Assembly: GCF_009912395.1 (NCBI RefSeq)
Contig: NZ_WNDO01000004.1
Coordinates: 62,001 to 126,000, forward strand
DNA from: Luteibacter sp.
GTDB lineage: Bacteria > Pseudomonadota > Gammaproteobacteria > Xanthomonadales > Rhodanobacteraceae
Reading direction: 5' to 3'
DNA: 64,000 bases
The first letter of the stretch is position 1. Each line of letters begins with the position of its first letter. A program made the position numbers and the translations under genes. Positions 5,879-25,645 of this stretch are shown here, one piece after another. The notes under the pieces were generated by a model. It worked only from the letters and a program-made list of their open reading frames with translations. It had not been told where the DNA came from and did no database searches.

Positions 5879-5882
5879 CACC

Positions 5883-7100: not shown

Positions 7101-7127
7101 TCAAACCGTTCCAAGGAGAGCTTGCCC

Positions 7128-7553: not shown

Positions 7554-7577
7554 TTCGTAAGGACGGCAAGCACGGCC

Positions 7578-9983: not shown

Positions 9984-11323
9984 CCGCCCTGCAGGACGCC
10001 TCACAGCTGCAGCTTGAACGCTTGCGCCGCGCATGGCGAGGCAGTCCGTTGCCCGGCTTTTTTCGTTGGTGGGGAGGCGAATTGTCGGCCCTGGTGCCGG
10101 TGCGCTGGCGCCATGCCTTCGGTGGCGGTCAACGCTGGTATGCCGTCGAGCGCAAGGAAGACGCCTGGGTATTGCGTCGGGTAGGCGAATCGCTGCCCCT
10201 GGCCACGGCCGACGACATCGATGGGGCCGAGCATCGCCAGGCCTTGCTGTCCCGCGCGCTCGCGGAAGCCGATCCCGCCGATCGCCGAGTGGCTCTGCTG
10301 TTACCTGCGGGGCAGGTGCTTCGCCGTCGACTCGTGTTGCCGGTGGCCGCGCGCGACAACCTGCGTCAGGTCGTCGGTTTCGACCTCGACCGGCAGACGC
10401 CTTTCCGTACCGAAGACATCCATTTCGGCGTGCGTGAACTCGGCGAAGGTGGCCCGGAAGGGCGCTTCGTCGCCGAACTTGCCGCGACACCACGCCAGTC
10501 CCTCGATGTCCAGCTTGATGAACTGGCCGGGCTTGGTATCGCGCCCGATCGCGTTGACGTTCCCCAGGGCTACGGCCTGGCCGGCATCGACCTGCTGCCA
10601 CCGGCGCGCGCCCCCCGTCGCGTGGATCGACGCAAGCGCCTGAACATGGCGCTGATCTTCGCCATCGTCGTCCTGTTGTTCGGTGCCATGGCGATGTGGT
10701 TGCACAACCGCAACCAGGCGTTGGAAACCATGCGTGCGGAGGTCGAGTCGCTGCGTACCGACGCGCAACGCGTGAAGGGCTTGCGCCAGCGGTTGACGGA
10801 AAGTGCGGGTGCGTCGGGTTTCCTCGCACGTCGCAAGACCGAATCGCCGTCGATTCTTCCCATCCTTACCGAACTCACTCAGCGCCTGTCCGACGACACC
10901 TGGCTGGAGCGGTTCACCGTGAACGCGACGGGGCAGATCGGCTTCCAGGGGCAAAGTCCCCAGGCCGCGCGCCTCATCGATGCGCTCAAGGGGGCGAGCG
11001 CCATCGGCGAACCCAGCTTCCAGGGCACGATCCAGACCGATCCCACATCGGGCAAGGAGCGTTTCTACATGCAGGCCAAGGCGCTGATTCCAAAGCCTGG
11101 CGCACCGGCCCACTCCGCGGCGAAGCCTGCACCTGCAAAGGCAGCAAGCGCACCGGCTCCCGGATCTAGTGCGGCGCCGAAGGCTGCAAACGCCGCACCT
11201 GCGAAGGCATCCACGGTGGCTACGCGGCCGTCACCCACCGCAGCGGCACCCGCAAGAGCCGCCACGGTCGCAGCGCCTGCCACCAAGGCCAAGGAGAACG
11301 CCGGTGCGCATGAAGCCAAATGA
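9980..11323 (+). CDS. gspL: Type II secretion assembly protein GspL (XpsL)
   Basis: GspL recruits the GspE ATPase to the inner membrane. The 447-residue protein has an actin-like cytoplasmic domain (about 1-215), one transmembrane segment (MALIFAIVVLLFGAMAMWL, about 223-241) and a periplasmic ferredoxin-like domain. The last roughly 75 residues are an Ala/Pro/Lys/Thr-rich low-complexity tail, which makes this protein longer than I expect for GspL. I chose the ATG at 9980, which overlaps the gspK stop (ATGA), over an in-frame TTG at 9959. The adjacent gspM encodes the usual partner that stabilises GspL. Confidence 0.92.
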   Translation: MTALQDASQLQLERLRRAWRGSPLPGFFRWWGGELSALVPVRWRHAFGGGQRWYAVERKEDAWVLRRVGESLPLATADDIDGAEHRQALLSRALAEADPADRRVALLLPAGQVLRRRLVLPVAARDNLRQVVGFDLDRQTPFRTEDIHFGVRELGEGGPEGRFVAELAATPRQSLDVQLDELAGLGIAPDRVDVPQGYGLAGIDLLPPARAPRRVDRRKRLNMALIFAIVVLLFGAMAMWLHNRNQALETMRAEVESLRTDAQRVKGLRQRLTESAGASGFLARRKTESPSILPILTELTQRLSDDTWLERFTVNATGQIGFQGQSPQAARLIDALKGASAIGEPSFQGTIQTDPTSGKERFYMQAKALIPKPGAPAHSAAKPAPAKAASAPAPGSSAAPKAANAAPAKASTVATRPSPTAAAPARAATVAAPATKAKENAGAHEAK

Positions 11324-11909
11324 ATCGCGGATCGCTGCGATCCTCCTGCTTATCGTCGTGATCGTGGTCGGTTACTTCGCGCTGGTCCATTGGTGGTTCG
11401 TCGCGCCTCAGCTGGCGATCGCCGACGAGATGACCGATCTACGCGATACCCAGCGTCGTTTCGCGGCCGCCATTGCCGAACGTCCGCAGCTTGAAAAGCG
11501 CCTGGCGTCGCTGGAACAGGGTCAATCCAGCAGCGACGCTTTCCTTGCCGGCGATGACACCAACGCCGCGGCGGCGGGACTCATGCAGCGTATCGTCGAT
11601 GTCGCCGCCGCGCACCATGAGAACGGGGCGTGTGATGTCGTGCAGAAAATGCCCGTGCCCAGCCAGGAAAAAGCCGGCGAGCCGTATCGCAAGGTCACCG
11701 TCAACATCAGCCTGCGTTGCCAGATGCAGCCGATGACGGCGGTGCTCCACGATATCGAGGAAGCCACGCCGTATCTGTTCATCGAAGACTTCAGCATTTA
11801 TCGCAATCCCGTGGCTGCCCGCGCGGGAGGCGCGGCACCGATGGAAGTGCAGTTCACTGTCTCCGGTTACATTCATGCCGCGCGTGCGCCGGCCAAGGCG
11901 GCATCATGA
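11304..11909 (+). CDS. gspM: Type II secretion assembly protein GspM (XpsM)
   Basis: GspM is a bitopic inner-membrane partner of GspL. The protein has a short cytoplasmic start (RMKPNESR), one transmembrane helix (IAAILLLIVVIVVGYFALVHWWF) and a periplasmic region with coiled coil (about 30-75) followed by a ferredoxin-like domain. I chose the GTG at 11304 because AAGGAG lies 7 nt upstream. The ATG at 11310 is a near-equivalent alternative (199 instead of 201 residues). Both overlap the end of gspL. The gene ends in an ATGA overlap with the next gene. Confidence 0.9.
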   Translation: MRMKPNESRIAAILLLIVVIVVGYFALVHWWFVAPQLAIADEMTDLRDTQRRFAAAIAERPQLEKRLASLEQGQSSSDAFLAGDDTNAAAAGLMQRIVDVAAAHHENGACDVVQKMPVPSQEKAGEPYRKVTVNISLRCQMQPMTAVLHDIEEATPYLFIEDFSIYRNPVAARAGGAAPMEVQFTVSGYIHAARAPAKAAS

Positions 11910-12679
11910 ACGCGGCCGATCAACGACGCCTGACCCCGATCCTCGGCGGTGTGGCACTCGCGCTGGCCGTCGTCTTTGGTGTGTTCGCCATGGGTGTGGG
12001 CCGTGGCGTGCATTGGGACGATCCCTCGCCGCCGGAAGCGCTGCCGCCCCTGCGCGCAGCGGCGATGCCGACGCCAACACCGATCGCCCAGTTCGTCGAC
12101 GTCTGGCAGCGCCCGTTGTTCATGTCGGATCGCAAGCCGGTGGCAGCGGCCGATGGCGACGACTCGGCCAGCAACATCGGCGATCTCGAATTGACCGGCA
12201 TCATCATGACCGCAGGCCTGCGCATTGCGCTCCTGCACGACAAGGGCAAGGACCTCACGGTGCGCGTCAAGGAGGGCACGCCGCTCGGCGATGGCCACTG
12301 GACGCTCGCGACGCTCAAGCCGCGTAGCGCCGTGTTCGACAACGGTGGCGATCATCGCGAGCTTACGTTGAAAGTGGCCGCACCCGATCCGTTGGCCAAT
12401 GCGCAGCAGGGTCAGAAGGTTCCGCCCATGCCGGGCCAGCCGCCGACGCCTCCCCGCCAACCGTCGCCGCAGCAGGACAACGGTATCCATATCGAGCAGC
12501 AGCCAGCATCGGGTATCGCCGGTCCCGTGCCGCCGCAGCCAGCATCGTCCGGTACGCGCCAGGCACCCCCGCGCCAGGATGACCAGGCCTTGCAGCAGGC
12601 GCGCATCGAGGCGCTCAAGCAGGCCGTGCAGCGTCGTCGCGCCGAACAGCAGAGCCAGCAACACCAGGATTCGCAGTAA
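11906..12679 (+). CDS. xpsN: Type II secretion protein XpsN, likely the GspC equivalent
   Basis: The 257-residue protein has a cytoplasmic N-terminus, one membrane segment (PILGGVALALAVVFGVFAMGV) and a periplasmic homology-region-like domain (FVDVWQRPLFMSDRKPV, then GDLELTGIIMTAGLRIALL). It ends in a Pro/Gln-rich, helical tail with no PDZ domain. In the Xanthomonas operon this position, between gspM and gspD, is held by xpsN, which links the inner-membrane platform to the secretin as GspC does elsewhere. No other gspC candidate exists in the operon. The start ATG overlaps the gspM stop (ATGA). Confidence 0.85.
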   Translation: MNAADQRRLTPILGGVALALAVVFGVFAMGVGRGVHWDDPSPPEALPPLRAAAMPTPTPIAQFVDVWQRPLFMSDRKPVAAADGDDSASNIGDLELTGIIMTAGLRIALLHDKGKDLTVRVKEGTPLGDGHWTLATLKPRSAVFDNGGDHRELTLKVAAPDPLANAQQGQKVPPMPGQPPTPPRQPSPQQDNGIHIEQQPASGIAGPVPPQPASSGTRQAPPRQDDQALQQARIEALKQAVQRRRAEQQSQQHQDSQ

Positions 12680-12727
12680 TAAGGAACGGCGCCTTGTGCG
12701 CCGTCATGGATGACAAAGGAGTACACC

Positions 12728-14914
12728 ATGCAACGTCGCACCCTCGGTGTGGCCGTGCTTTCGGCCATCTTGGCGACGGCCTGCGCGCCCCAGGCGCCCC
12801 GCCCCTATGACAGCAGCCTCGAGCGCGAAGCGCTCGCCGGTACCGAGCGCCCCGTACCCAAGCCGCTGCCGCTGGCTGACGCCGACGCCACGAACGACAC
12901 CGCATCTGCCCTATCCCCCGCTACGCTGCGCGGCACTGGCCGCTTCGTCCAGCCGCGAGGCCTGGAGAAGCCGCGCGCCAGCATCGGCGGTGAAGGGGCG
13001 GTAACACTCAACTTCGAGAACCAGCCGGTCGAAGCCGTCGTCAAGGCGATCCTCGGCGACCTTCTCGACATGAACTATTCCATCGCGCCGGGTGTGATGG
13101 GTTCCGTCTCGTTTTCCACGTCCAAGCCGGTACGCAAGGAGGACGTGCTTTCCATCCTTGAAACGTTGCTTGGCTGGACCGGTAACGCACTGGTCGAAGA
13201 CAAGGGGCGTTACGCGGTCATGCCGTCCTCCTACGCTGTTGCGGGTCGCGTCGTGCCACGGCTGAAGGCTTCGTCATCTCGCGCGGGCATGAGCGCGAGG
13301 TTGTATCCCCTGCGCTATGTGGCGGCACCGGAAATGACGAAGCTGCTGCAGCCTTTCGTTACACCCGAGTCCATCCTTTTGACCGATCCCGCGCGCAACG
13401 TGCTCGTACTGTCGGGTACGCCCGAACAGCTCGCCAACTATGGCGAAACCATCGATACCTTTGATGTGGATTGGGTCAAGGGCATGTCCGTCGGCGTATT
13501 CAGCCTGGACAACGCCGGCGTCGGTGAAGTGATGCCGGCGCTGGATTCCGTGTTTGGCCAAAAGAGTGGTGCGCCGGTCGCCGGTCTCGTCCGTTTCATT
13601 CCCATCCAGCGGACCAACGCCATCGTCGCGATCGCCACGCGTGCCGAGTTTCTGGATCAGGTCGGCGAATGGATCGATCGCATCGATCACGGCGGAGGTA
13701 GTGAACCGCGCTTGTTCGTCTACGACGTGCGCAACCTGGTGGCGTCGGATCTCGCCCGCTACGTGGGAAATATTTTCGGCGCGTCGGTCGCTGCGGATAG
13801 CCCATCGTCGGCGACGGTCGTACCCGGGTTGTCGTCGGCCACGCTCGATGGCGACGGCGGCGGTCTGGATGCGCCGTCGCAAGGCGAGGACAGCGATCCC
13901 GATTTCTTCAAGCCACCCGAGGAGGTGTCCGCGCCAGCGGCCTCATCGCGTAGCGGTGGCTCGCGATCCTCGGGCATCCGTGTCACGGCGGTGGACGCAA
14001 ACAACCAGCTGATGATCCATGCGCGACCTTCGCAATGGGCGCAGATTCGCCAGGCGATAGAGCGCCTGGATGCCGTGCCGTTGCAGGTGCAGATCGAGAC
14101 ACGAATCCTGGAGGTGACGTTGCGGGATAATTTCCGCTTCGGCGTCCAGTGGTACCTCGAGGGCCTGGCGGGTGGCGATGGCGAAGTAGCCCAACCCGGC
14201 AACAAGCAGCAGTGGGCGCTGGGCAGCGCGACCAAGGACGCACTCCGTCCGGATACGTTCTTCTATTCGTTCGTGAACTCCGATCTGCAGGTGGCGCTGC
14301 GGGCTATGGAACAGAATACGAATACGAAAATCCTTTCCGCGCCATCGCTGGTGGTGGTCAACAATCGTAAGGCGAAGATCCAGGTCGGCGACCAGATTCC
14401 CGTCACGCAGACCTATGTCAACACCGGTGTAGGCAACGGCAACCAGGTAGGTCAGGTGGAGTACAAGGACACGGGCGTAATCCTCGAAGTGCGCCCGCGC
14501 GTCAATCCCGGCGGATTGGTCTACCTCGACGTGGTGCAGGAAGTCAGCCGTGCCGATCTGGTGGGTCCGGGGTCCAATGCGCCCATCGTCAAGCGCAAGC
14601 TGAATACCCAGGTGGCCGTACAGAGCGGACAGACGGTGTTGCTGGGTGGTCTCATCCGAGACATGGATTCGGAACAGCATGCCGGCGTGCCCCTGTTGTC
14701 ACGCATGCCAGTGATCGGACGGTTGTTCGGGGAGCAAAGCAAGGAAGGTATGCGTACGGAACTCCTGGTTCTCATCACGCCGAAAGTCATCACCAGCGGT
14801 GAAGACGCGAAACGTGTTTTCGACGAGTACCGACGCACATTCCGTTCGCTTCGCCCCCTGGATTCGGAAGTGGTCGACCGAGATGTATTGAAGAAGGACG
14901 TTCGGGAGGGATAG
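12728..14914 (+). CDS. gspD: Type II secretion outer-membrane secretin GspD (XpsD)
   Basis: GspD forms the outer-membrane gate of the type II secretion system. The 728-residue protein has a signal sequence ending ILATAC, a weak lipobox. Periplasmic N0-N3 domains follow (for example NFENQPVEAVVKAIL and YPLRYVAAPEMTKLLQPF), with an acidic/Ser linker near residues 355-415 inside N3. The C-terminal secretin domain carries LSAPSLVVVNNRKAKIQVG and the terminal VLLGGLIRD...LLVLITPKVI. I chose the ATG at 12728 because AAAGGAG lies 6 nt upstream; an in-frame ATG at 12710 has no such site. It is the last gene of the operon. Confidence 0.95.
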   Translation: MQRRTLGVAVLSAILATACAPQAPRPYDSSLEREALAGTERPVPKPLPLADADATNDTASALSPATLRGTGRFVQPRGLEKPRASIGGEGAVTLNFENQPVEAVVKAILGDLLDMNYSIAPGVMGSVSFSTSKPVRKEDVLSILETLLGWTGNALVEDKGRYAVMPSSYAVAGRVVPRLKASSSRAGMSARLYPLRYVAAPEMTKLLQPFVTPESILLTDPARNVLVLSGTPEQLANYGETIDTFDVDWVKGMSVGVFSLDNAGVGEVMPALDSVFGQKSGAPVAGLVRFIPIQRTNAIVAIATRAEFLDQVGEWIDRIDHGGGSEPRLFVYDVRNLVASDLARYVGNIFGASVAADSPSSATVVPGLSSATLDGDGGGLDAPSQGEDSDPDFFKPPEEVSAPAASSRSGGSRSSGIRVTAVDANNQLMIHARPSQWAQIRQAIERLDAVPLQVQIETRILEVTLRDNFRFGVQWYLEGLAGGDGEVAQPGNKQQWALGSATKDALRPDTFFYSFVNSDLQVALRAMEQNTNTKILSAPSLVVVNNRKAKIQVGDQIPVTQTYVNTGVGNGNQVGQVEYKDTGVILEVRPRVNPGGLVYLDVVQEVSRADLVGPGSNAPIVKRKLNTQVAVQSGQTVLLGGLIRDMDSEQHAGVPLLSRMPVIGRLFGEQSKEGMRTELLVLITPKVITSGEDAKRVFDEYRRTFRSLRPLDSEVVDRDVLKKDVREG

Positions 14915-15057: not shown

Positions 15058-16263
15058 ATGACTACGGCTACGCCATCACGGGTGCTTCGATCTTTCGTGG
15101 CGTGCACGGCGCTATGTTTCATGGCCGGTGGGGCGTCAGCGTCGCCCACCGGTGCCAGGTATTACACGCCAGCCAGACCTGGCGATGTGTTCGGGGAGTG
15201 GACGCTTCATCGCATGGCCATGCTGTCGCGAGCCGACCTCGGTAGTGTCTGGCCCTTTCAGCACGATAGCGTCTGGGTGGAGGAGTACCTGGACAGTCCG
15301 GGGTCCATCTACAGTGACCTGCATGTCGGCATGTTCATGTGGCAGCGAGGCGATGGCCCCAGGGGCGAAGCCGTCTTTCCGGAAAAAACATCGCAGAAAG
15401 CGCGTGCGATCGCATGGGACCTGGGCCTGACCAAGGCACTTCCGGGCTGGCAGGCCCTCACGGATGCATCGGCATCCGTGTACACCTATTACGCACCGTA
15501 TCTAGGCGCCAACCTCAGCAAGGCGGGGGTGCTTCCAACGTACTACGAGAAGGCGTACGAACTGTACGGAAACGAGGTCTATGCGATCACGGCGGAGTTG
15601 GCGGTGGCGTTGCAGATACTGCACGAGTGGGTCGAGGCGGTTCCCCCGCAGGATCGCATCGAACAGGGAATCTACGCCGATGTGCTGACGCGGTTTGAAT
15701 CTGCCACATCCATGGATCAGATCCTCGAAGCTGATCTCACCTACTTGGCCGATATCCTGCGTGGGGAGCTCTCGCTGTGGAGAGGCGGTGGGCTTAATAC
15801 CTTCGGCATTCGGGAAATCCCGACGCCCTTGCGCATTGCCCGCGTTGCCGCGGCCTTTGCGACTAGTCAAGGCGGCTTTCGCGCCTGCAAGGCGGATGGC
15901 AGCCATGATCCTCAGTACGCGGGAGCGATTCCGGAGCAGACGCAGACACCGATCTGCCCGACCGATGCGACCGATCGAGCGGTCTATCGCTGGTATCGCG
16001 CGTTGCGCGAGAAGCAACTCCATCGACCGGCATCAGAGATTGACGACATGGCACGGGCTGCTCGCCTGGTCGATGCCTTTGCCGACATCAAGCCGGCGTG
16101 GGCGGGCGCTTTCTCTGGCAAGGCGCTCGATTGGTCCAACCATGCGGAGATCATCGAAGCCCAGGTGGCCGTGGCTGGCGATCCAGCCCGCGATACGGAG
16201 CTGGATTTCTACCGACTCGTCGAGCGAGCCAATCTGATTATTTGCAGGAGTTCGACGCGATGA
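15058..16263 (+). CDS. Exported partner-family protein A1 (unknown function)
   Basis: I do not recognise this 401-residue protein. A Sec signal peptide is visible at the N-terminus (SFVACTALCFMAGGASA, cleavage near residue 29). The mature part looks mainly helical. Two blocks are shared with the proteins at 19839 and 22906: PTPLRIARVAAAF (about residue 255) and a C-x-x-DATDR block ending in W-Y (about residue 300). A looser shared segment (ADVLTRF...YLADILRGELSLW) lies between residues 205 and 240. The gene starts 143 nt after gspD and its stop overlaps the start of the deaminase-fold gene at 16260 (ATGA). It may be a chaperone, co-secreted partner or immunity factor for that neighbour; nothing seen chooses between these. 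Confidence 0.75.
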   Translation: MTTATPSRVLRSFVACTALCFMAGGASASPTGARYYTPARPGDVFGEWTLHRMAMLSRADLGSVWPFQHDSVWVEEYLDSPGSIYSDLHVGMFMWQRGDGPRGEAVFPEKTSQKARAIAWDLGLTKALPGWQALTDASASVYTYYAPYLGANLSKAGVLPTYYEKAYELYGNEVYAITAELAVALQILHEWVEAVPPQDRIEQGIYADVLTRFESATSMDQILEADLTYLADILRGELSLWRGGGLNTFGIREIPTPLRIARVAAAFATSQGGFRACKADGSHDPQYAGAIPEQTQTPICPTDATDRAVYRWYRALREKQLHRPASEIDDMARAARLVDAFADIKPAWAGAFSGKALDWSNHAEIIEAQVAVAGDPARDTELDFYRLVERANLIICRSSTR

Positions 16264-17111
16264 TGAGTGTTATCAAGTCGACAAAAGTCGTGTTTTGCGG
16301 TCTATGCCTGCTGGCTTCCCTGGTAGCGGGCGCTCACCCCGTACTGAAGCGCAAGATCCACGACGATCCGCGAGGAACGGTCACGGCGCGTGTTCTGGCT
16401 GCGTTCACGCCCCATGCCCGTGCAGCGGGCCTCTGGTACTTGGCGGCGTTGGAAGGGCGGCGGGTCGACACGCAGGAGTTCACCGCGTTTTCCCAGCAGT
16501 TTGAATCGGCGACCTTCGTGAGCGCCACATACCAGTACGAGATCGACGGGACGTCATATCGTCGCGTATACCACGCACGATCGGGATGGAACGAGCCGCG
16601 GCTGGGTATTCCCGGTCTACGTGCGGTGCGCGACTACAGCGCTTATTTCGAGGCCTCCACCGATGTCATTGCATGGGACCGGACTCCGCCTCGTCATAGT
16701 ACGGTGACGGCGAGGCCCCTGGACGACGGACGCGCCGCCAACGCGCGGGATCGCGATGCGGAACTCAAGATTGCCCGACAGATCGAGCGGGACATCCGCA
16801 ATGGGAGAGTCCGCGCCGGTGGCTATCTGGCCGTGTACTCAAGCCAGGAGCCCTGTGCATCATGCGAGCCCGCGTTGCAGGCGCTATCGGACGCGAGGGG
16901 TATCCGGGTGCATGTGGCGTTTCTCGGTCGGCAAAGTCCCGCGTATCGCACGTTCGATCGCCTTCGCCACCAACATATGACGACGATTGAAGTCTCCGTC
17001 AACGGGGGGCAGATCCATGTGCTGAACCACAATGCGGCGGTGATGGACCAGGTACCGGCACCGGTCGATTGCATGGAACCGGAGAACCACGAGGATCTGA
17101 ACGAAGTTTGA
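16260..17111 (+). CDS. Exported deaminase-fold protein B1
   Basis: This 283-residue protein carries an N-terminal signal sequence (VVFCGLCLLASLVAGAHP). Its C-terminal half has the layout of nucleotide/nucleic-acid deaminases: a beta-hairpin (SATYQYEIDGTSYRRVYHARSG), a helix with D166-A-E168-L-K, then a strand leading into P-C199-A-S-C202. D-x-E with C-x-x-C resembles polymorphic-toxin deaminases of the BURPS668_1122 type, where these residues bind zinc and activate water. A later S-P-A-Y-R motif is shared with B2. I chose the ATG at 16260 (AGGAG 9 nt upstream), overlapping the stop of A1. Target (DNA, RNA or free nucleotide) and activity are unknown. Confidence 0.72.
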   Translation: MMSVIKSTKVVFCGLCLLASLVAGAHPVLKRKIHDDPRGTVTARVLAAFTPHARAAGLWYLAALEGRRVDTQEFTAFSQQFESATFVSATYQYEIDGTSYRRVYHARSGWNEPRLGIPGLRAVRDYSAYFEASTDVIAWDRTPPRHSTVTARPLDDGRAANARDRDAELKIARQIERDIRNGRVRAGGYLAVYSSQEPCASCEPALQALSDARGIRVHVAFLGRQSPAYRTFDRLRHQHMTTIEVSVNGGQIHVLNHNAAVMDQVPAPVDCMEPENHEDLNEV

Positions 17112-17176
17112 TATCGCGGTACCCGCAGGACGGCGAAGGAGCGATCGGGCGCCGCCTTGCGTAACATAGCGGTCCT

Positions 17177-19687
17177 ATGACCGCCGTCTTTCCCATTACC
17201 CCGCTGCTACCCGACATCCTCACCTCGTTGCACGACCATCCGCGGCTCGTGCTCGAGGCGCCGCCGGGCGCGGGCAAGACGACCCAGGTACCCCTGGCCC
17301 TGCTCGACGCACCCTGGCTGTCGGGGCAGCGGATCGTAATGCTGGAGCCTCGTCGTATCGCCGCGCGTGCCGCCGCCTCCTTCATGGCGGCGCAACTGGG
17401 CGAGGGGGTTGGCGAGACGGTCGGTTACCGCATCCGCTTCGAATCGCGAGTGGGGCCGCGTACGCGGATCGAGGTCGTGACCGAAGGCATCCTGGGCCGG
17501 ATGATCCAGGACGACCCTTCTCTGGAGGGTATCGGTGCGATCCTGTTCGATGAATTTCATGAGCGTCACCTTCCCGGCGACCTGGCGGCGGCGCTGACGC
17601 TGGATGTGCAGGCCAACCTTCGCCCCGAGCTGCGTATCGTGGTGATGTCGGCGACGCTCGACGGTGAACGCATCGCGCAATGGCTGGGTGCGCCGAGGCT
17701 GACCAGCCCCGGTCGCAGTTATCCGGTGACGATGACTTATCCACCCGCACGGGCCCAGGAGAGCACCGAGCAGCAGACCACGCGCGGCGTACTCCAGGCA
17801 TTGCGCGAGACGACAGGCGATGTACTGGTCTTCCTGCCGGGACGGCGCGAGATCGAGCGCACCCGTAGTCTGCTGGAGCATCAGGCCGACGATGTCGACG
17901 TCGTCGCGTTGCATGGCGAACTGTCCATGGCGGAACAGCAACTGGCGTTGACGCCAGGCGACGAAGGCGTGCGCCGTGTCGTGCTGGCGACCAACGTGGC
18001 GGAATCCAGCGTGACGTTGCCGGGTATCCGCGCGGTGGTGGACTCGGGTCAGGCACGCGAGCCGCGCTTCGATCCGGCATCGGGCTTTTCCCGACTGGAA
18101 ACCGTGATGATCTCGCAGGCTTCGGCCGACCAGCGTGCGGGTCGCGCGGGGCGCGTGGCGGAAGGCACGGCGTATCGTCTCTGGCCGGAGAGCCGGCGGC
18201 TGGAGCCATCCCGTATTGCGGAGATCGAGCAGGCCGAACTGTCGGGTCTCGCCCTGGACCTGGCGGGGTGGGGTAGCGATGATCTCCCTTGGCTCGATGC
18301 GCCGCCGGTCGGCGCGATGAACCAGGCGCGCGATCTGCTGCGCCGCCTGGGTGCCATGGACGACGGTGGCACCATCACGTCGCTGGGCCGCGACATGCTG
18401 GCGCTGGGCGCCACACCGAGACTGGCCGCGGCCGCCCTGCGCGCCCCGGTGGAGCGACGCGCGCTCGTAGCCGATCTGCTGGCCCTCGTGGAGGCCCGCT
18501 CGCCGTTGCGCGGCGAACAGGGGCGCACGGACGATTTCCGGCAACGCGTGGCCGCGCTCCATCTCTGGCGCGACGCCGGCGCGCGTGGTGCGCGCAACGC
18601 GTCAGCCGATGTGGGCGCCCTCGCGGCGATCGACAAAGCCTCGGCCGGTTGGCGACGGCGTCTGGAAGCGCGTACGGCGGCGAGCGGCGTGCCTGATTCG
18701 CATGCCGTGGGCGATCTGCTGGCCCATGCGTTCCCGGACCGTGTCGCTCGTCGTGACGACAATCAACCGTCGCGTTACCAGATGGCCAACGGTCGCGGTG
18801 CGCGCCTGCACGAGAACAGCGCCCTGCATGGCGAACCCTGGATCGTGGTCCTCGATCTGCGCCTCGAAGCCCGTGACAGCCTGATCCACGCCGGTGCTCC
18901 CCTCGATCCGGATTTACTGGCACGGGAGCATCCGGATCGCTTCATCACCCAGCGGGTGCTGCGCTGGGACGACGAACGCGGTATTGCCGAGGCCTTCGAG
19001 GAGCGTCGTTTCGACGCGCTGGTCATATCGCGTAAACCGGTGCCCATGAGTGGTGACGACGCATTGCCGGCGTTGATCGCGGCCATCCGTTCGCGCGGTA
19101 TCGCCTCGTTGCCCTGGACCGACAACGCATCGCGCCTGCGCACGCGCATTGGCGCGCTGAGGGTCTGGCGTCCGGAACTGGGCTTGCCGGATGTGGGCGA
19201 CGAAGCCCTGCTACGGTCGCTGGATACCTGGCTGTCGCCCTATCTCTCGGGCAAGCGACGCCTGGAGGCGCTGCAGCCCTCCGAGCTGTCCGAAGCGCTG
19301 GCGGCGATGCTCGACTACGAACAGCGTCGGGCGCTGGATGCGCATGCACCCGAGGAGCTCACCGTTCCCAGCGGTATGAGTCGCCGCCTGGAATACGGCG
19401 CGCGCGACGACGAGCCCGGTGCGCCTCCCGTGCTGGCGGTGAAGCTGCAAGAGCTGTTCGGCCTTGCGGACACCCCTCGCGTGGGTGATGGACGAGTTCC
19501 CGTGATGCTGCACTTGCTGTCACCGGCAGGACGCCCCATCCAGGTCACGCAGGATCTCTCCGGTTTCTGGAACCGTACCTATCCCGAGGTAAAGAAAGAG
19601 CTGAAGGGACGTTATCCCAAGCATCCCTGGCCCGACGATCCCTGGACGGCGACCGCGACACACAGGGCTAAGCCGCGAGGCACCTGA
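17177..19687 (+). CDS. hrpB: ATP-dependent helicase HrpB
   Basis: This is a DEAH-box-type helicase of the HrpB family, a cytoplasmic RNA-helicase-like ATPase with poorly defined role. The 836-residue protein has Walker A GAGKTTQ near residue 31, the DEFHERH variant of motif II, SAT (VVMSATLDG), and motif VI QRAGRAGR. HA2-like and HrpB C-terminal domains follow (SGFWNRTYPEVKKELKGRYPK.. near the end). Length is typical. It splits the two exported gene pairs A1/B1 and A2/B2 and appears to be a core gene around which accessory genes have accumulated. Confidence 0.95.
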   Translation: MTAVFPITPLLPDILTSLHDHPRLVLEAPPGAGKTTQVPLALLDAPWLSGQRIVMLEPRRIAARAAASFMAAQLGEGVGETVGYRIRFESRVGPRTRIEVVTEGILGRMIQDDPSLEGIGAILFDEFHERHLPGDLAAALTLDVQANLRPELRIVVMSATLDGERIAQWLGAPRLTSPGRSYPVTMTYPPARAQESTEQQTTRGVLQALRETTGDVLVFLPGRREIERTRSLLEHQADDVDVVALHGELSMAEQQLALTPGDEGVRRVVLATNVAESSVTLPGIRAVVDSGQAREPRFDPASGFSRLETVMISQASADQRAGRAGRVAEGTAYRLWPESRRLEPSRIAEIEQAELSGLALDLAGWGSDDLPWLDAPPVGAMNQARDLLRRLGAMDDGGTITSLGRDMLALGATPRLAAAALRAPVERRALVADLLALVEARSPLRGEQGRTDDFRQRVAALHLWRDAGARGARNASADVGALAAIDKASAGWRRRLEARTAASGVPDSHAVGDLLAHAFPDRVARRDDNQPSRYQMANGRGARLHENSALHGEPWIVVLDLRLEARDSLIHAGAPLDPDLLAREHPDRFITQRVLRWDDERGIAEAFEERRFDALVISRKPVPMSGDDALPALIAAIRSRGIASLPWTDNASRLRTRIGALRVWRPELGLPDVGDEALLRSLDTWLSPYLSGKRRLEALQPSELSEALAAMLDYEQRRALDAHAPEELTVPSGMSRRLEYGARDDEPGAPPVLAVKLQELFGLADTPRVGDGRVPVMLHLLSPAGRPIQVTQDLSGFWNRTYPEVKKELKGRYPKHPWPDDPWTATATHRAKPRGT

Positions 19688-19838
19688 ATCGCCGCGCTTT
19701 CGGGCGTCCACCCACATGCGCCGGGCGTGTGCCTTCGCGCATGCATCGGCGTCGCGGATACGCTCGAAGCCGATCTTCCTTTCCAATGCCCTGTCGCCGG
19801 CACCCTGCCGTCGACCATCGCACAAAAAAGGAGGTTCC

Positions 19839-21014
19839 ATGCGATTACATGGATTTGTCGCGCATAGCGCGTTCGTCGCATTCGCGTTCGTCTCTGCCGG
19901 GTCGACGCTTGCCGCACCCCGCGTCGGGCCACCGCCCGGCGACCTGATATCGGCCTGGATCAAGCATCGTCTTGCGGTCGATGCCGATCGCGACCCACTG
20001 ATCGCCGACGCGAGGCTCACGAACGACATTGTGCTTTCGCCGGCGGACATCTACACGCCGGTGCGAAGCGTTCCGTTCTCATTCCGGGGCGTGCTGTGGA
20101 CACACACCTTCGTGGACCTGCTTTCCGACGGCTACCCGTTCAGCCGTTCCACGGCCACCCAGGCGCTTGCCTGGGACCTGGGCATGACCAACGGATATCC
20201 GGGGGCGGTGGATTCCGCCCATCTTGCACCGGATCTCGGCGCCCGCTGGGCGGGTACCCAACTGGCCAAGGCCGGGGTGACCGAAGCCATCGCCCGCAAG
20301 GCGATCGGGCTGGCGGGGCAGGGTGCTTATGCTGTCGCGGCGAACTACGCCGTGGCGGTGCAGATCCTGGTCGACAAGCTCGCTTGCTACGAAGCGTCCG
20401 AATGGCCGAGTCTCGGCTTGCGCGATGACATCGTGCAGCGATTCATGGCGGCGAATGCGCTGGGTGAATTGCGCGATTACGATCTCATCTACCTGATGCG
20501 GATGTTGCAGGCCGAACTCTCCACCTGGCATGCCGGCGAGATGAATATGTACGGTCGCCGCGAGCTTCCCACCGCCCTGCGGGTCGCGCGCGTGGCGGCC
20601 GCTTACCGTGACATGCAGGGGTATGCGCACGATCCCTGCACCCAGGGCGGTCGGCATGACCGCTCGGTAGCTGCCACCCTGCCTACCGACACCACGAAAT
20701 CGATGTGCCTGGTGGATGCGACCGATCGCTCGGTGCTTGCCTGGTACCTCACCACGTTCGACGCCCAGACGAATCCGGAGCACACCAATTTCGTCGTCGC
20801 GCCTGCGATGCGCATGACTCGCCTGGTGCGACCGGTTCGTCCTTTGTGGCTGGGGGTGTTCGGTAATGAATTGCAGGCCCATTCCGTCAATCTGGAAGTG
20901 GTGGAGTCCCTGGTCGCCGACCAGCTGGCGACGGACGACGCCTCGGAAGCCAAGGCGGAACGCTATACCATGCGTCGCGCCGTGTTCCTGTGTGCCAAGG
21001 AGATCGGCGCATGA
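19839..21014 (+). CDS. Exported partner-family protein A2 (unknown function)
   Basis: This paralogue of the protein at 15058 has 391 residues with an N-terminal signal sequence (HSAFVAFAFVSAGSTLAAP). Shared blocks are PTALRVARVAAAY (about residue 245), CLVDATDRSVLAWY (about 290), and LRDDIVQRFMAAN with YLMRMLQAELSTW between them. I chose the ATG at 19839 because a strong AAAAGGAGG lies 4 nt upstream; an in-frame extension to 19716 would bury the signal peptide. The stop codon overlaps the start of the deaminase-fold gene at 21011, as in the first pair. Function is unknown. Confidence 0.75.
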   Translation: MRLHGFVAHSAFVAFAFVSAGSTLAAPRVGPPPGDLISAWIKHRLAVDADRDPLIADARLTNDIVLSPADIYTPVRSVPFSFRGVLWTHTFVDLLSDGYPFSRSTATQALAWDLGMTNGYPGAVDSAHLAPDLGARWAGTQLAKAGVTEAIARKAIGLAGQGAYAVAANYAVAVQILVDKLACYEASEWPSLGLRDDIVQRFMAANALGELRDYDLIYLMRMLQAELSTWHAGEMNMYGRRELPTALRVARVAAAYRDMQGYAHDPCTQGGRHDRSVAATLPTDTTKSMCLVDATDRSVLAWYLTTFDAQTNPEHTNFVVAPAMRMTRLVRPVRPLWLGVFGNELQAHSVNLEVVESLVADQLATDDASEAKAERYTMRRAVFLCAKEIGA

Positions 21015-21808
21015 AGACACGTCATGTCGGGATGATGCTCGTCGGCCTGCTTCTCGCCGCACCCGCTTCGGCCGAGAGCTGGCGGGCCACCGGGTTTGCG
21101 GAAGACGACCGGAACATCGTCACAGGAGCGTTGATCGACGCCTTTCGCTTCCATGCGGAAGCGGCCGCCACGTGGTACCTGAATCAGCTGGAAGGGAACC
21201 TGGTATCGCAAAAGACCTTCAGTCAGTTCAGTCATGCGATGGTGTCCGCGACATACGGAGCCTTCGAATACACCTATACGAAAGACGGCGTGCGGAATAC
21301 CCGCATCTACTACGCGATGTCGGGTCGCGACGATCCGCCGACGGGCCTTCCCTCCGGGCACACGCCCATGGCGAACTTCATCGCCCAGGACAGCACGCGC
21401 ATCCACGCATACATCGGAGCTAACGACCAGAGCGCGATCCGCTGGACCGAAATCGAGACCGATGCCATTCCGGATCAGCATCGTCGCGATGCGGAACTGA
21501 AAGCCGTGCGGACCATCGAGCGCGATATCCGCTCGGGCGTGGTCACGCGGGGTGGCCGGCTCCAGGCCTTCGTCAGCCAGCCCATGTGCGACTCCTGCGA
21601 GCATGTGATGCACGAATTCGAGCGCATCTATGGCGCGGACATCCAAGTGAACTACCTGGAAGGCAATCTTAGTCCCGCTTACCGTCGATTCCGCCGCTTG
21701 ATCAACGGCTTCATGAATACCGTGCTGGTCTTGGTGCAGCGGCCCAGCAGATCGAACCATCCAACGCCGCCGTCGGGTGGCGCATGCGGTAGCATTTTCG
21801 TTCAGTGA
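21011..21808 (+). CDS. Exported deaminase-fold protein B2
   Basis: This 265-residue paralogue of B1 has a clear signal peptide (VGMMLVGLLLAAPASAES). The deaminase-type elements are a hairpin (FEYTYTKDGVRNTRIYYAMSG), D160-A-E162-L-K with the following helix VRTIERDIRSG, and C193-D-S-C196 preceded by M rather than P. S-P-A-Y-R follows about 35 residues later. The start ATG overlaps the A2 stop (ATGA) with AAGGAG 8 nt upstream, so the pair is likely co-translated. It is probably a zinc-dependent deaminase in an exported form; substrate unknown. Confidence 0.72.
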   Translation: MKTRHVGMMLVGLLLAAPASAESWRATGFAEDDRNIVTGALIDAFRFHAEAAATWYLNQLEGNLVSQKTFSQFSHAMVSATYGAFEYTYTKDGVRNTRIYYAMSGRDDPPTGLPSGHTPMANFIAQDSTRIHAYIGANDQSAIRWTEIETDAIPDQHRRDAELKAVRTIERDIRSGVVTRGGRLQAFVSQPMCDSCEHVMHEFERIYGADIQVNYLEGNLSPAYRRFRRLINGFMNTVLVLVQRPSRSNHPTPPSGGACGSIFVQ

Positions 21809-21820
21809 TGCATCGGTTGG

Positions 21821-21848
21821 CCGGAACGACGCCAAGCCGTCGTTCCGG
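21821..21848 (+). terminator. Strong 11-bp hairpin after the A2/B2 pair
   Basis: CCGGAACGACG and CGTCGTTCCGG form a perfect 11-bp stem around a 6-nt loop, 12 nt after the stop of B2. The downstream sequence is G-rich rather than U-rich, so this may mark transcript end or protect the 3' end instead of acting as a classical terminator. It isolates the next gene as a separate transcription unit. Confidence 0.45.
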
Positions 21849-21983
21849 TCAGGGGGGCATCCTGTGGACTGTCCATCGTGGGTGGGGTGACCTATGATCC
21901 GCGGCCCGCGGGCCCGACGTTTTCGGGCGACGCAAAGACAGGCAAGGAACGCCTCATGATGTGTAAGGAAAAGGACAGTCGCC

Positions 21984-22778
21984 GTGCGTGATGGCGATGG
22001 GGGGAGGAATGCGCGTCTCAGGCGTGGCGTCCGCGTTGTGTTCATGGCACTAGCTTTTTTCCAGGCTCCTGGGGCTGGGGCCGTGGACATGGTCGATATC
22101 GTCGACGATATCGAGGGAGTCACGGTGGGCATGCTTCGTGGTGCCTACGATTACCACCTGGAATCCGCCGGTCGCATGATCGGCGCGATGGACACCGACG
22201 GTTTGACCTCGGCGGACCTGGACCGCCTGGCCCATCGTTGGTCCACGGCGACGGTGGCGCGATTCGAATACACCTATGTGCAGCGAGGGCGACCGCGCAC
22301 GGTGGTGTACCACGCGATCTCAGGGCAGGAGGCAAATCATATCCTCGGTCTGTCCGTGCCGGACATGACTTCCTACTATCCCGTTTCCGTGATGGATCGC
22401 CGAGCGATGATCACCGCCGCGGCGGGGAGTCGCCTGGCACCTCCTGAGGTCGGCCACGTCATGGATGCCGAGATCAAGGGTTTTCGTTCGATCGAGAAAG
22501 ACATCGTCTCCGGCAAACTACTCAGGGGAGGGCGGTTGAACATATGGGTGAGCCAGCCGGCCTGTGCATCGTGTCGTCGCGTGGCTTCGTCCTTCGAAGA
22601 CGGCTACGGTGTGAGGACAACGATCCATCAATGGATGAAGAGGGAAACCCCTGGAGACTCTCCGTTTCGTCAGCTCTCCACCCATCGCCGCCGAGGTGGC
22701 ACACGATTGCGACACTGGAGGAAGCAGGCCAGTTCGCTGACGAGCGTCCGCGTCCTGATCGCAGGATGCCTACCTTGA
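21984..22778 (+). CDS. Exported deaminase-fold protein B3, without a partner gene
   Basis: This 264-residue paralogue of B1, B2 and B4 reads from GTG 21984 and has a signal sequence (RRGVRVVFMALAFFQAPGAGA). The fold markers are FEYTYVQRGRPRTVVYHAISG, D161-A-E163-I-K with FRSIEKDIVSG, and C194-A-S-C197 in VSQPACASC. After this the sequence becomes basic and unlike its relatives (THRRRGGTRLRHWRKQ), so the C-terminus may be altered. Unlike the others it has no partner-family gene directly upstream; 175 nt of non-coding DNA with a hairpin precede it. The GTG start is the best in-frame choice but is not backed by a strong ribosome binding site. Confidence 0.65.
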   Translation: MRDGDGGRNARLRRGVRVVFMALAFFQAPGAGAVDMVDIVDDIEGVTVGMLRGAYDYHLESAGRMIGAMDTDGLTSADLDRLAHRWSTATVARFEYTYVQRGRPRTVVYHAISGQEANHILGLSVPDMTSYYPVSVMDRRAMITAAAGSRLAPPEVGHVMDAEIKGFRSIEKDIVSGKLLRGGRLNIWVSQPACASCRRVASSFEDGYGVRTTIHQWMKRETPGDSPFRQLSTHRRRGGTRLRHWRKQASSLTSVRVLIAGCLP

Positions 22779-22905
22779 GGAAGCGGTTCCGGGGATTTCG
22801 CCTACGAGAAGGTCGGCAGTATTCCTATCGAGTGTAGGTGTAGGGATGTGGTCTCATAAGACCGGGCACCAGGACGTGTCCTTCGTTCCCTACCTGTAAC
22901 CGAAC

Positions 22906-24033
22906 ATGGATGGTTCTTCATGCGATTACGCTTACACGGCTTGGCGCTCGCCCTGGCCGTCTACCTGGGCCCCCCCCGGTGTCCACGCCGGCGAAGCTCC
23001 TTTAGCGGATTTTCCCGAACGCCTCATGCAAAGCATCGTCGAGAAGGAAGGCGACGAGACGGATCGCTTCAATGACGAACATGCCCGATCCTTCCTTCTC
23101 GTCGACCCGTCCTCGGCATACAGCGATCTGCGGGTCATCGCTTCGGAGGATCTCGACGAGAGCTGGCACGATGCGCTTGCGCGTTCCGGTCTGGATGCCG
23201 ACGTGGGTATCGAGGTCTATGCACGTCGCATGGGCCTGACGAAGGCGCGGCCCCAGGTCGACATCGTCGTGGATCCCGCCTACGATCATTACGATCCGTT
23301 GATCGGAGCCCAAGCCACCAAGGCGGCGATGGACGAGGACATATTCCGTCAGGCCGTGAACTACACGGGCTATCACAACTCCGCCCTCGCGGCGAATTAC
23401 GCCGTGGGTGCACAGATCTTGCGCGACAAGTTGCACCGTGTTCCGGTCGACAAACACGATGACTACAACCTTCGTTCGGATGTGCTGGAACGCTTCATGC
23501 ACCTCGCTACGAAGGATGTCATCGACGACTACGACGGTGATTATTTGCAGCGATTGCTCAAGAGCGAAATGGTGGAATTTCGCCCGGGCACCTCGCCATC
23601 GCTTGGTGTTCAGTACATTCCAGCGCAGTTCCGGGTGGCACGCGTCGCGGCGGCCTATCACGACCAGACGGGCTACTTCGGCGGGTATCCCTGCCTTCCG
23701 TCGGGAAGATACAACCCATCGTTTGCGGGTACGGGCAAGGAAGGCGATTCGCGTGCATTGTGTTTCGTAGATGCGACCGATCAGGACACGTACGCCTGGT
23801 ATCAGAAACAGCTGGCGGATCAAATCGAGGGAATAAAGCGCTATCCGGACAACATCAAGGAATCCGGTCTGGTGAAGCTTCTAAGGCCTATCGCCATCAT
23901 CAGTGAAGCAGCCGGTATCGGCTCCTTCATTCACTTCAGTACCGGCCTTCGCGCGTGGGGGAAGGGCATGATTCGTCCCCGTCCGGTAAAGAATATTTAT
24001 CAGAAGATCAACACACGGATGTGCAAAGCCTGA
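22906..24033 (+). CDS. Partner-family protein A3, signal peptide out of frame at a poly-C tract
   Basis: This third member of the partner family has 375 residues in the open frame from 22906. It shares PAQFRVARVAAAY (about residue 239) and CFVDATDQDTYAWY (about 286) with A1 and A2, plus LRSDVLERFMHLA. In this frame the N-terminus is not a signal peptide. A good one (MRLRLHGLALALAVYLGPP) begins at ATG 22920, with GGATGG 6 nt upstream, in another frame. It would join the main frame at GVHA-GEAP if the run of eight C at 22970-22977 were seven. As written, the 22920 frame stops after about 60 codons. The defect is a real frameshift, a phase-variable switch or a sequencing error. Confidence 0.65.
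   Translation: MDGSSCDYAYTAWRSPWPSTWAPPGVHAGEAPLADFPERLMQSIVEKEGDETDRFNDEHARSFLLVDPSSAYSDLRVIASEDLDESWHDALARSGLDADVGIEVYARRMGLTKARPQVDIVVDPAYDHYDPLIGAQATKAAMDEDIFRQAVNYTGYHNSALAANYAVGAQILRDKLHRVPVDKHDDYNLRSDVLERFMHLATKDVIDDYDGDYLQRLLKSEMVEFRPGTSPSLGVQYIPAQFRVARVAAAYHDQTGYFGGYPCLPSGRYNPSFAGTGKEGDSRALCFVDATDQDTYAWYQKQLADQIEGIKRYPDNIKESGLVKLLRPIAIISEAAGIGSFIHFSTGLRAWGKGMIRPRPVKNIYQKINTRMCKA
22970..22977 (+). repeat. Homopolymer of eight C that decides the reading frame of A3
   Basis: Eight consecutive C follow GGG. With seven C the signal peptide begun at 22920 reads into the body of A3; with eight it does not. It is the point where the two frames of the gene meet. Confidence 0.8.
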
Positions 24034-24034
24034 T

Positions 24035-24850
24035 ATGAAATTTCACATGGAATCGTCGTATCGGCGTATCTCTGCGCGATTGCTGTCGGCATTCGCACTG
24101 CTCGTGGCTGGCCCGGCATGGGCTAAACTGGATATCGCGGAATTGCCCGAGGGTGAGGGGAGCGAGGTGGCCATCGATGCCATGAGGCGTTCAGTTGAAA
24201 TCCACACGGATCAGGTACTGAACTATCGCGATTCGGCCGAAGGTGGCCCGGGCGCTTTCAGCAAGCAAGACATGAAGACCCAGATGGCGAAGGGGAGGCG
24301 GGCGACATACGCATCGGCCGAGTACGAGGTGAACGGAAAAACCTATACATATGTCGCGAAGTCAGGCGAAGATCTGATTGGGGCCGTGCCTCACTCGGAC
24401 GGTATGCTTCCCGACCATAAGCCGTTCGGTGAAACGCGTGTAGCCCGGGTTTCTTTTAAGAATCCCACCCATTCTGGCGGTGACTTCACATCGAAATTCC
24501 ATGCGAGTATCCCGATGCAGGCGTTCGATGCTGAAATGAAGTTGGTTCGCACCATCGAGTACGAGTTCGAAGTAAACAAGCTGCCGCAGGGAGGCAAGCT
24601 CACCATGTGGGTAAGCAAGGAACCATGTGCTTCATGCAGTCCCGTGCTGAAGCAGTTTCATGACGAATACTTTTCGAGCAGCAACCTGAAAGTCCGCTTC
24701 GTGCCCGATAACACCGCAAAGCTGCAAGATGCTCTTTCGGCTCGTTTCCATCAGAAACGATTGACGGGTCTCGCTCCGCTTGGCAGCCCTGAGATCAAGG
24801 GCTCGTGGTATCGATCGCGCTCATCATCGCCGGACAGCTTCTGCCCTTGA
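24035..24850 (+). CDS. Exported deaminase-fold protein B4
   Basis: This 271-residue protein is the most typical deaminase-motif protein of the four. It has a signal sequence (RLLSAFALLVAGPAWA), a hairpin (SAEYEVNGKTYTYVAKSG), D165-A-E167-M-K with LVRTIEYEFE, then GGKLTMWVSKEPC198-A-S-C201 and PVLKQFHDEYF. This closely follows the order seen in toxin deaminases (D-x-E-x-K, G-x-L...P-C-x-S-C, V-I-x-Q-F). It starts 2 nt after the stop of A3; ATG 24047 is an alternative start. The gene is visibly more AT-rich than its neighbours, suggesting acquisition. Substrate and recipient are unknown. Confidence 0.75.
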   Translation: MKFHMESSYRRISARLLSAFALLVAGPAWAKLDIAELPEGEGSEVAIDAMRRSVEIHTDQVLNYRDSAEGGPGAFSKQDMKTQMAKGRRATYASAEYEVNGKTYTYVAKSGEDLIGAVPHSDGMLPDHKPFGETRVARVSFKNPTHSGGDFTSKFHASIPMQAFDAEMKLVRTIEYEFEVNKLPQGGKLTMWVSKEPCASCSPVLKQFHDEYFSSSNLKVRFVPDNTAKLQDALSARFHQKRLTGLAPLGSPEIKGSWYRSRSSSPDSFCP

Positions 24851-24925: not shown

Positions 24926-25645
24926 CTACCAGCGTGTACGCTCCGGCAGCAATCCCTTCAACTCGACTTCGGTCAGGTTGCGCCACTGCCCCGGCTTCAG
25001 ATGGCCGAGCTTGACGTTGATGATACGGACGCGGCGCAACTGTGTGACGCGGTAGCCGAAGGCGGCGGCCATCAGGCGGATCTGCCGGTTCAGGCCCTGC
25101 GTGAGGATGATGGCGAAACCGTACTTCGCGATCCGCCGCACCTTGCAGGGCTTGGTCATCTGCCCGTGGATACGCACGCCACGGGCCATGCCGGTCAGGA
25201 ACTCGTCGGTCACCGCCTTGTTCACCGCCACGAGGTATTCCTTCTCGTGGTGGTTCTCGGCGCGGAGGATCTCGTTGACGATGTCGCCGTTGCTGGTCAG
25301 CAGGATCAAGCCCTCGGAGTCTTTGTCGAGACGACCGATGGGGAAGATCCGTTGCGCATGATCGACGAAGTCGACGATATTGCCGTCCACCGTGGTGTCG
25401 GTGGTGCAGGTGATGCCGACGGGCTTGTTCAGGGCGATGTAGACCCCCCGATTCTTTGACGACTCCGGCGCCATGGTGCGAGCGACGACGACGTCGCCAT
25501 CGACCTTCACCACGTCGCCGTCGAGCGCCTTGGCACCCATGCCGACCGTTTCGTCGTTGATGGTGACACGACCGGCCACGAGCAGTTCGTCCGCCTCGCG
25601 GCGGGAGCAGAGCCCGGATTCGCTGATGTACTTGTTGACGCGCAT
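24926..25645 (-). CDS. rluF: 23S rRNA pseudouridine synthase RluF
   Basis: RluF makes pseudouridine at position 2604 of 23S rRNA. The 239-residue protein has an N-terminal S4 RNA-binding domain (MRVNKYISESGLCSRREADELL) and the RsuA/RluF catalytic core with GRLDKDSEGL, whose Asp is the catalytic residue. The conserved KEYLVAVNK and QGLNRQIRLM follow. The match to E. coli RluF runs along most of its length, including ILRAENHHEKEYLV and YRVTQLRRVRIINV, though the C-terminus is shorter. It is transcribed leftward together with the ABC transporter genes upstream, 4 nt after them. Confidence 0.93.
   Translation of the reverse strand: MRVNKYISESGLCSRREADELLVAGRVTINDETVGMGAKALDGDVVKVDGDVVVARTMAPESSKNRGVYIALNKPVGITCTTDTTVDGNIVDFVDHAQRIFPIGRLDKDSEGLILLTSNGDIVNEILRAENHHEKEYLVAVNKAVTDEFLTGMARGVRIHGQMTKPCKVRRIAKYGFAIILTQGLNRQIRLMAAAFGYRVTQLRRVRIINVKLGHLKPGQWRNLTEVELKGLLPERTRW

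Follow-up and report, generated by a model that had tools for sequence, protein, structure and literature searches.

Most described deaminase toxins form the tips of large proteins that are delivered by contact-dependent inhibition (CDI), the type VI secretion system (T6SS) or similar machineries, and they come with a separate immunity protein. The T6SS-delivered toxin DddA belongs to the SCP1.201 subgroup of deaminases, and there are also toxins of two subunits in which a disulphide holds the catalytic chain. According to the excerpts of a survey of polymorphic toxins, the deaminases among them carry [HCD]xE and CxxC motifs, those of the BURPS668_1122 type occur with the all-helical immunity proteins Imm2 and Imm3, and export by Sec and the type II secretion system (T2SS) with a signal peptide is one of the routes used (PMC3482391). 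Excerpts of a second paper describe toxins of other deaminase subgroups that mutate DNA, including SsdA of the DYW-like and BaDTF3 of the Pput_2613-like subgroup (PMC7901873). Here we analysed 64,000 nucleotides of a Luteibacter sp. genome (contig NZ_WNDO01000004.1, positions 62,001 to 126,000; this whole stretch is referred to below as the window), which contain an array of four genes for putatively exported deaminases, B1 to B4, three of them preceded by a gene of a second family, A1 to A3. The membership of B1 to B4 in the BURPS668_1122 (PF14424) family, the A-B pairing and the fixed site of the array beside T2SS genes are well supported, and the A-B unit may form a disulphide-linked, exported complex.

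The array lies on the forward strand in the order A1-B1, a helicase gene, A2-B2, B3 and A3-B4, with A1-B1 directly 3' of gspD. All seven A and B genes reported in an earlier note on this DNA were found in place: A1 (401 aa, 15058..16263), B1 (282 aa, 16263..17111, with an alternative ATG at 16260), A2 (391 aa, 19839..21014), B2 (265 aa, 21011..21808, its start overlapping the A2 stop by 4 nt), B3 (21984..22778), the body of A3 (22906..24033) and B4 (271 aa, 24035..24850). The gene order given in that note holds in that three B genes are preceded by an A, but a gene for a housekeeping ATP-dependent helicase (17177..19687, forward strand), which we take to be of the hrpB type and which lies outside the system, splits the array after its first pair.

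B1 to B4 are paralogues of 264 to 282 aa, with B2, B3 and B4 being 38, 29 and 23% identical to B1. The comparison with the PF14424 hidden Markov model that had been proposed earlier placed B1 (E = 6.6e-7) just above and B4 (4e-8) above the curated Pfam cut-off, whereas B2 (4.2e-5) fell below and B3 (0.12) far below it. The D-A-E motif starts at residues 165, 160, 161 and 165 of B1 to B4 (codons 16755, 21488, 22464 and 24527) and C-x-x-C at residues 198, 193, 194 and 198 (cysteine codons 16854/16863, 21587/21596, 22563/22572 and 24626/24635), in agreement with the positions of about 160-168 and 193-202 read earlier. For the anatomy of the array, 25 stretches from 22 relatives were taken, which together with the window contain 67 A and 71 B open reading frames (ORFs), two giant proteins not being counted. 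Apart from a fused copy, the B proteins are 249 to 362 aa long and consist of a signal-like N-terminus and a deaminase. The B alignment comprises 69 of the 71 (the window's four included; a 129-aa fragment and the fused copy were omitted and the two giant proteins dropped), and 38 of these 69 match PF14424 at E <= 0.01. The aspartate of the first motif is present in 68 of the 69 rows and the glutamate and both cysteines in all 69, as counted from the alignment; a regular-expression count mis-assigned some rows and was not used. The toxin-type zinc site with Asp thus proved to be conserved in the homologues. Cross-matches to other deaminase groups were weak (SsdA, E = 0.42; Pput2613-deam in 4 of the 69 B, best 0.0028). 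The closest relative of B3 (54% identity; L066 11057-11809) likewise has no A. Beside rluF in L071 (6688-7074), a 129-aa B fragment in which C-x-x-C is present and the first motif absent is probably a decayed copy.

A model of B1 built from 69 sequences (predicted local distance difference test, pLDDT, 90.3; predicted template modelling score, pTM, 0.84) follows the deaminase core in its order of elements, with a hairpin, the motif helix, a strand, the C-x-x-C helix, a second strand and a final helix. The beta-hairpin that had been noticed before the motif corresponds to two strands (61-70 and 73-82 in mature B1). In a Foldseek search of the PDB the model retrieved deaminases, with 49 AID/APOBEC entries and one guanine deaminase among the best 50 rows (best E = 2.8e-3, probability 0.98). 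Neither of the two outcomes that the earlier note had named as refuting the deaminase reading, a model lacking the fold or homologues with unconserved motif residues, was observed. B may be an active deaminase and a toxin.

The partner family is diverged, as the earlier note had it (A2 and A3 are 32 and 29% identical to A1). No Pfam family was matched by A1 to A3 at E <= 1, and over 65 A proteins Pfam and NCBIfam gave scattered weak matches only, the best being to DUF6197 (2 members, 1e-4); none of the known immunity families Imm2, Imm3 and SUKH was matched in Pfam. PADLOC, run with A1, B1, A2 and B2 only, returned nothing convincing. The A1 model (65 sequences; mean pLDDT 89.3, pTM 0.92) is all-helical and found no counterpart in the PDB (best E = 0.61; in the best 50 rows, template modelling (TM) scores did not exceed 0.17 when scaled to the query and 0.19 when scaled to the target) or among the BFVD viral models (best E = 0.80), nor did the A profile among PDB sequences (best E = 0.13). 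Since nothing in the PDB or the viral models resembles the A1 model, the predicted fold of A may be new. In the A alignment (65 of the 67 A; the fused copy and L067 14234-15475, which lacks a called start, were omitted), a pair of cysteines, C249 and C272 of mature A1, is invariant in 65 of 65 rows.

A and B are tightly paired in the relatives. In 65 A-then-B neighbours (one A without a called start was omitted), B starts between -4 and +25 nt from the A stop, and 31 of them show a 4-nt overlap, with starts as called. The order is B-A in one pair only (L078), and three complete B, B3 included, are found without an A. Distances among the A and among the B proteins of 64 pairs correlate with r = 0.81, compared to r <= 0.15 in 1,000 random re-pairings and a mean of 0.19 (maximum 0.40) in 1,000 swaps of partners within loci; the nearest neighbours of A and B agree in 39 of the 64 pairs. 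As the observed r is far above that of the within-locus swaps, partner specificity exceeds what a shared genome history provides. The ratio of non-synonymous to synonymous substitutions (dN/dS) was 0.14-0.30 in all 14 comparisons close enough to make, and the compared genes are therefore kept by purifying selection. Between paralogues of one locus A is more conserved than B (median identity 29% and 23%, respectively). The tight coupling, the co-evolution and the genus-wide pairing strengthen the companion role that the earlier note had assigned to A.

A natural fusion of 650 aa, joining a B to the next A, is encoded in L083 (11131-13080, reverse strand). It was tried as the basis for a joint A-B fold and dropped: in the joint alignment of 106 rows the B rows showed 7-15% identity to the fusion and the A rows 21-37%, which we read as a misplacement of the B rows, and B1 was therefore folded alone.

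Nearly all A and B begin with signal-like N-termini according to a custom score, which also served to choose the start codons; values below 3.0 were obtained for one of 70 B and for six of 66 A, the A of the fusion and A3 of the window included. The earlier proposal that the A family is exported fits A1 and A2, but the reading frame of A3 lacks a signal peptide, and a signal-like stretch begins at 22920 in another frame (within 22906-23060), so that A3 is either damaged or mis-sequenced. By the custom score, the N-termini would speak against a type II toxin-antitoxin system, in which both partners are cytosolic.

Both families also tend to end in a cysteine. After removal of the signal peptides at estimated cleavage sites, three cysteines are left in 45 of 66 A and 59 of 70 B; in B, two of the three are the zinc ligands and the third stands at the chain end. 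The C-terminal cysteine column, into which the aligner may pull a tail cysteine from some distance, is occupied in 60 of 65 rows of A (C368) and 68 of 69 rows of B (C246). In A1 the cysteines of the mature part are residues 277, 300 and 396 (codon 16243, sixth from the end), in A3 they are 263, 286 and 373 (codon 24022, third from the end), and A2 has a terminal Cys 385 (codon 20991, seventh from the end). The tail cysteines of B1 and B2 are encoded at 17070 and 21785, and those of B3 and B4 at 22767 and 24842 (third and second from the end, respectively). The B tail varies in length and sequence and is of low confidence in the B1 model, and still it ends with a cysteine. A cysteine lies within the last 10 residues of 60 of 66 A and within the last 25 residues of 67 of 69 B; among 260 further ORFs from the same loci, the corresponding numbers are 11 and 36. 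Both partners of a pair carry the terminal cysteine in 58 of 64 pairs and neither in two, while only that of A is lost in four and only that of B in none (Fisher p = 0.007); this p value and the contrast with the control ORFs are optimistic, because the pairs are related, the cut-offs were set after inspection and the 260 controls include many orthologous copies. In L083, the terminal cysteine is missing from the A of the fusion as well as from the B that comes after it. That two putatively exported, tightly paired proteins carry one free cysteine each suggests an interchain disulphide between A and B.

In each of the 22 relatives the main array occupies the same site, bounded by hrpB (or gspD) and rluF, where an ABC transporter is also found. 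A hrpB match of 78-85% identity is present at this site in all 22 loci (partial in one), and rluF keeps its place in all 22 as well. Only gspD and gspN were sought among the T2SS genes of the relatives; gspD lies beside the array in 21 of the 22, and in the 22nd the contig stops before it. In the window, an xps-type T2SS operon (4154..14914, forward strand) precedes A1 and encodes the probable exporter. It includes gspE (4154-5878), gspF (5883-7100), genes for minor pseudopilins, gspM, an xpsN-like gene and gspD (12710-14914). GspE (5e-206), GspF (8e-131), GspM (5e-55) and GspD (5e-131) scored above the NCBIfam cut-off and XpsI, GspJ, GspK and XpsN below it; the ORF at the place of gspL is only weakly PilM-like. 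Since a further gspD homologue, 54% identical over residues 15-419, is found elsewhere in the same genome (G000:C12), the T2SS at the array looks like an additional one. The adjacent T2SS genes, the fixed site throughout the genus and the terminal cysteines go beyond the earlier note.

In six loci a further gene stands beside or between the array halves. It was considered as cargo and rejected, as it encodes a DEAD-box RNA helicase, presumably of the dbpA type as assigned by eye. The gspD-hrpB-dbpA backbone recurs in two genomes of another genus (L126 and L127), where different genes replace the array; those between dbpA and hrpB were judged by eye to be unrelated, and neither an A nor a B is present.

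Among the genomes searched, the system appears to be confined to Luteibacter. Family searches used profiles built from the window's proteins, and the genome samples for family, order, class and phylum overlap. A was found in 23 of the 233 genomes of the family, namely the window's own and 22 other Luteibacter, and in 0 of the 210 others. B was found in these 23 genomes and in a single further one, there as the end of a 3,531-aa ORF. A-B pairs, which the earlier note had suggested looking for, were present in all 23 Luteibacter genomes searched; each encodes between one and five divergent A, and almost every A is accompanied by a B of its own. In a sample of 398 genomes of the order, a 65-row profile of A matched 22. 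Of these, 20 are Luteibacter, and the two from other genera reached no better than E = 0.002, which we take to be chance matches. In the phylum, the same profile matched only the window's own genome out of 398. A 69-row profile of B matched 2 of 369 genomes of the class, the own genome and one at E = 0.0044. A pattern-based scan of a genome collection gave 10 loci, all Luteibacter. No match was found in plasmids for A1 or B1, in phages for A1 or in viral contigs for A. Luteibacter is a soil- and fungus-associated genus, and the fungus-dwelling strains described in the excerpts of one paper, the endohyphal Luteibacter 9135 and 9143 (PMC5361626), seem to carry arrays.

Taken together, we tentatively propose, at slightly below an even chance, that the A-B unit is a two-subunit, toxin-like complex that is linked by a disulphide and secreted by the T2SS, with B as the deaminase and A as its holder and carrier. 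Both proteins would cross the inner membrane by Sec, as their N-termini suggest. In the oxidising periplasm the two invariant cysteines of A would close an internal disulphide, and its end cysteine would join the tail cysteine of B to give a covalent 1:1 heterodimer. To judge from the neighbourhood, this complex is probably exported by the adjacent T2SS. The all-helical A, for which no solved structure matched, would carry and hold B until the reducing cytosol of a target cell breaks the bond; the freed B would then act as a BURPS668_1122-type zinc deaminase and modify nucleic acid or nucleotides. A role of A as carrier or restraint is favoured over classical immunity because A is conserved, upstream and apparently exported. 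The most complete version of this proposal, a genus-wide, reduction-released binary deaminase toxin with a new-fold A, a C-terminal disulphide, diversified cognate pairs and an additional, dedicated T2SS, is in our estimation unlikely to hold in every part.

Several observations weigh against the proposed complex, in addition to the optimistic cysteine statistics and the dependence of the signal calls on a score that also set the start codons. The superposition of the B1 model on PDB structures is poor (TM 0.18-0.30 by query and <= 0.40 by target length in the best 50 rows), and the model supports a deaminase fold through the consistency of its matches rather than through superposition. Four pairs retain the B tail cysteine where that of A is gone. 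Two of these A, similar proteins at the rluF end of the arrays in L065 (8167-9189) and L076 (9870-10856), have no clear signal peptide either, and their partner B retain both features. The three complete B without an A still carry the tail cysteine, which may therefore serve another role, such as B-B dimers. Not every pair is found at the main site: three are located elsewhere (L072, L078 and L082), and the one in L072 (6239-12149, G110) adjoins a CorA gene and the T6SS genes for VipA, VipB and Hcp. The housekeeping genes hrpB and dbpA share the main site, so that the T2SS neighbourhood may be an accident; to our knowledge, T2SS export signals cannot be read from sequence.

Pairing and partner-specific co-evolution are also typical of toxin-immunity pairs, and A could be an exported immunity protein or chaperone that binds and silences B in the periplasm of the producer or a sibling and stays there, with B alone being secreted to kill bacteria. 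The all-helical model of A would agree with this, as BURPS668_1122 toxins are accompanied elsewhere by all-helical Imm2 and Imm3 in the excerpted survey (PMC3482391). However, A precedes B instead of following it, with L078 as the sole exception, and it looks exported, yet the substrates of deaminases are normally cytosolic. Moreover, it is the better conserved of the two between paralogues, has residues invariant in 65 of 65 rows and matches no Pfam immunity family, and an inhibitor that is used repeatedly would not be expected to bind covalently; we regard immunity as improbable. If instead the pairs acted in the producer's own periplasm and the proximity of the T2SS were accidental, the housekeeping genes at the site and the three pairs elsewhere would be accounted for. 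Nucleic acid is normally absent from the periplasm, however, and the main array adjoins gspD in 21 of 21 relatives' loci where the contig reaches that far, which makes this explanation very improbable.

The target of the proposed complex might also be eukaryotic (fungi, plants or amoebae) rather than bacterial. T2SSs are often used in interactions with eukaryotes, and the lack of a classical immunity gene and the apparent arrays of the endohyphal strains would fit such a target. On the other hand, arrays occur in all 23 Luteibacter genomes searched and thus do not go with a single lifestyle, a CdiA-like protein of the window's own genome contains a deaminase of this family, and divergent copies fit arms races between bacteria equally well. 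We consider a eukaryotic target quite improbable. Export without an injection device would finally be compatible with a non-toxic extracellular deaminase that serves nutrition or signalling by acting on free nucleotides or on nucleic acid in the environment. The placement of B in a toxin-deaminase family argues against this, and the several divergent A of a genome (one to five), almost all paired with a separate B, would be unusual for a scavenging enzyme, so that we hold it to be the least probable of these explanations.

Compared to described toxins, B shares with the BURPS668_1122 C-termini of CdiA-like proteins the profile match, the D-x-E and C-x-x-C motifs and the deaminase-type fold, but it is short, stand-alone and apparently exported, with an N-terminal helical piece, a Cys-ended tail and an upstream, likewise apparently exported partner. 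It has no exchangeable trafficking domain and is not the C-terminus of a larger protein, unlike polymorphic toxins. Such a protein is present in the own genome: a 3,645-aa ORF (L089 3888-14822, reverse strand; G000:C9), by Pfam a filamentous haemagglutinin of two-partner secretion, ends in a PF14424 domain (E = 1.5e-24) and offers a second route for the same toxin family; no A was found in its surroundings of 18 kb. The toxin-family enzyme, the all-helical partner and the lineage-specific multiplication are shared with the Imm2/Imm3 systems, whereas A precedes the toxin, appears to be exported, matches no known family and ends with a conserved cysteine. B has the zinc deaminase fold of DddA, SsdA and BaDTF3, which according to the excerpts is used there as a toxin (PMC7901873), but these belong to other subgroups. 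If it exists, a reducible covalent link of the enzyme to a second chain may be likened to that of disulphide-linked two-subunit toxins; in A, however, neither a receptor-binding nor a translocation domain was recognised. Among the matches listed in literature searches on BURPS668_1122/PF14424, SsdA-type toxins, Luteibacter T2SS or deaminase, T2SS antibacterial effectors and Imm2/Imm3, no such pairs were found, in line with the earlier note, whose author knew of no described system of this architecture.

On the right, the array site is bordered by a gene for an rluF-type pseudouridine synthase (24926..25645, reverse strand; NCBIfam 7e-93, just below the cut-off). The GC content falls to 56-58% at A3-B4, and the array as a whole is not marked by a GC dip. 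Promoter-like sites (1 compared to 2.3 in shuffled sequences) and terminator-like sites (8 compared to 5.3, standard deviation 2.4) were not clearly above chance. Upstream of the T2SS operon, an ORF for a YadA-type trimeric autotransporter adhesin is located at 11-3955 of the window.

The toxin family of the enzyme is thus known, and the partner A, the signature of a covalent pair and the setting beside a T2SS are apparently new. If the proposal is true, a whole genus would use diversified pairs of a free, exported deaminase and its partner, secreted by a T2SS, which would represent a delivery logic different from that of the large toxins. The partner would have a possibly new fold, and the arrays, belonging to a family for which no substrate was found described in the literature examined, would be a source of many natural, divergent deaminases.

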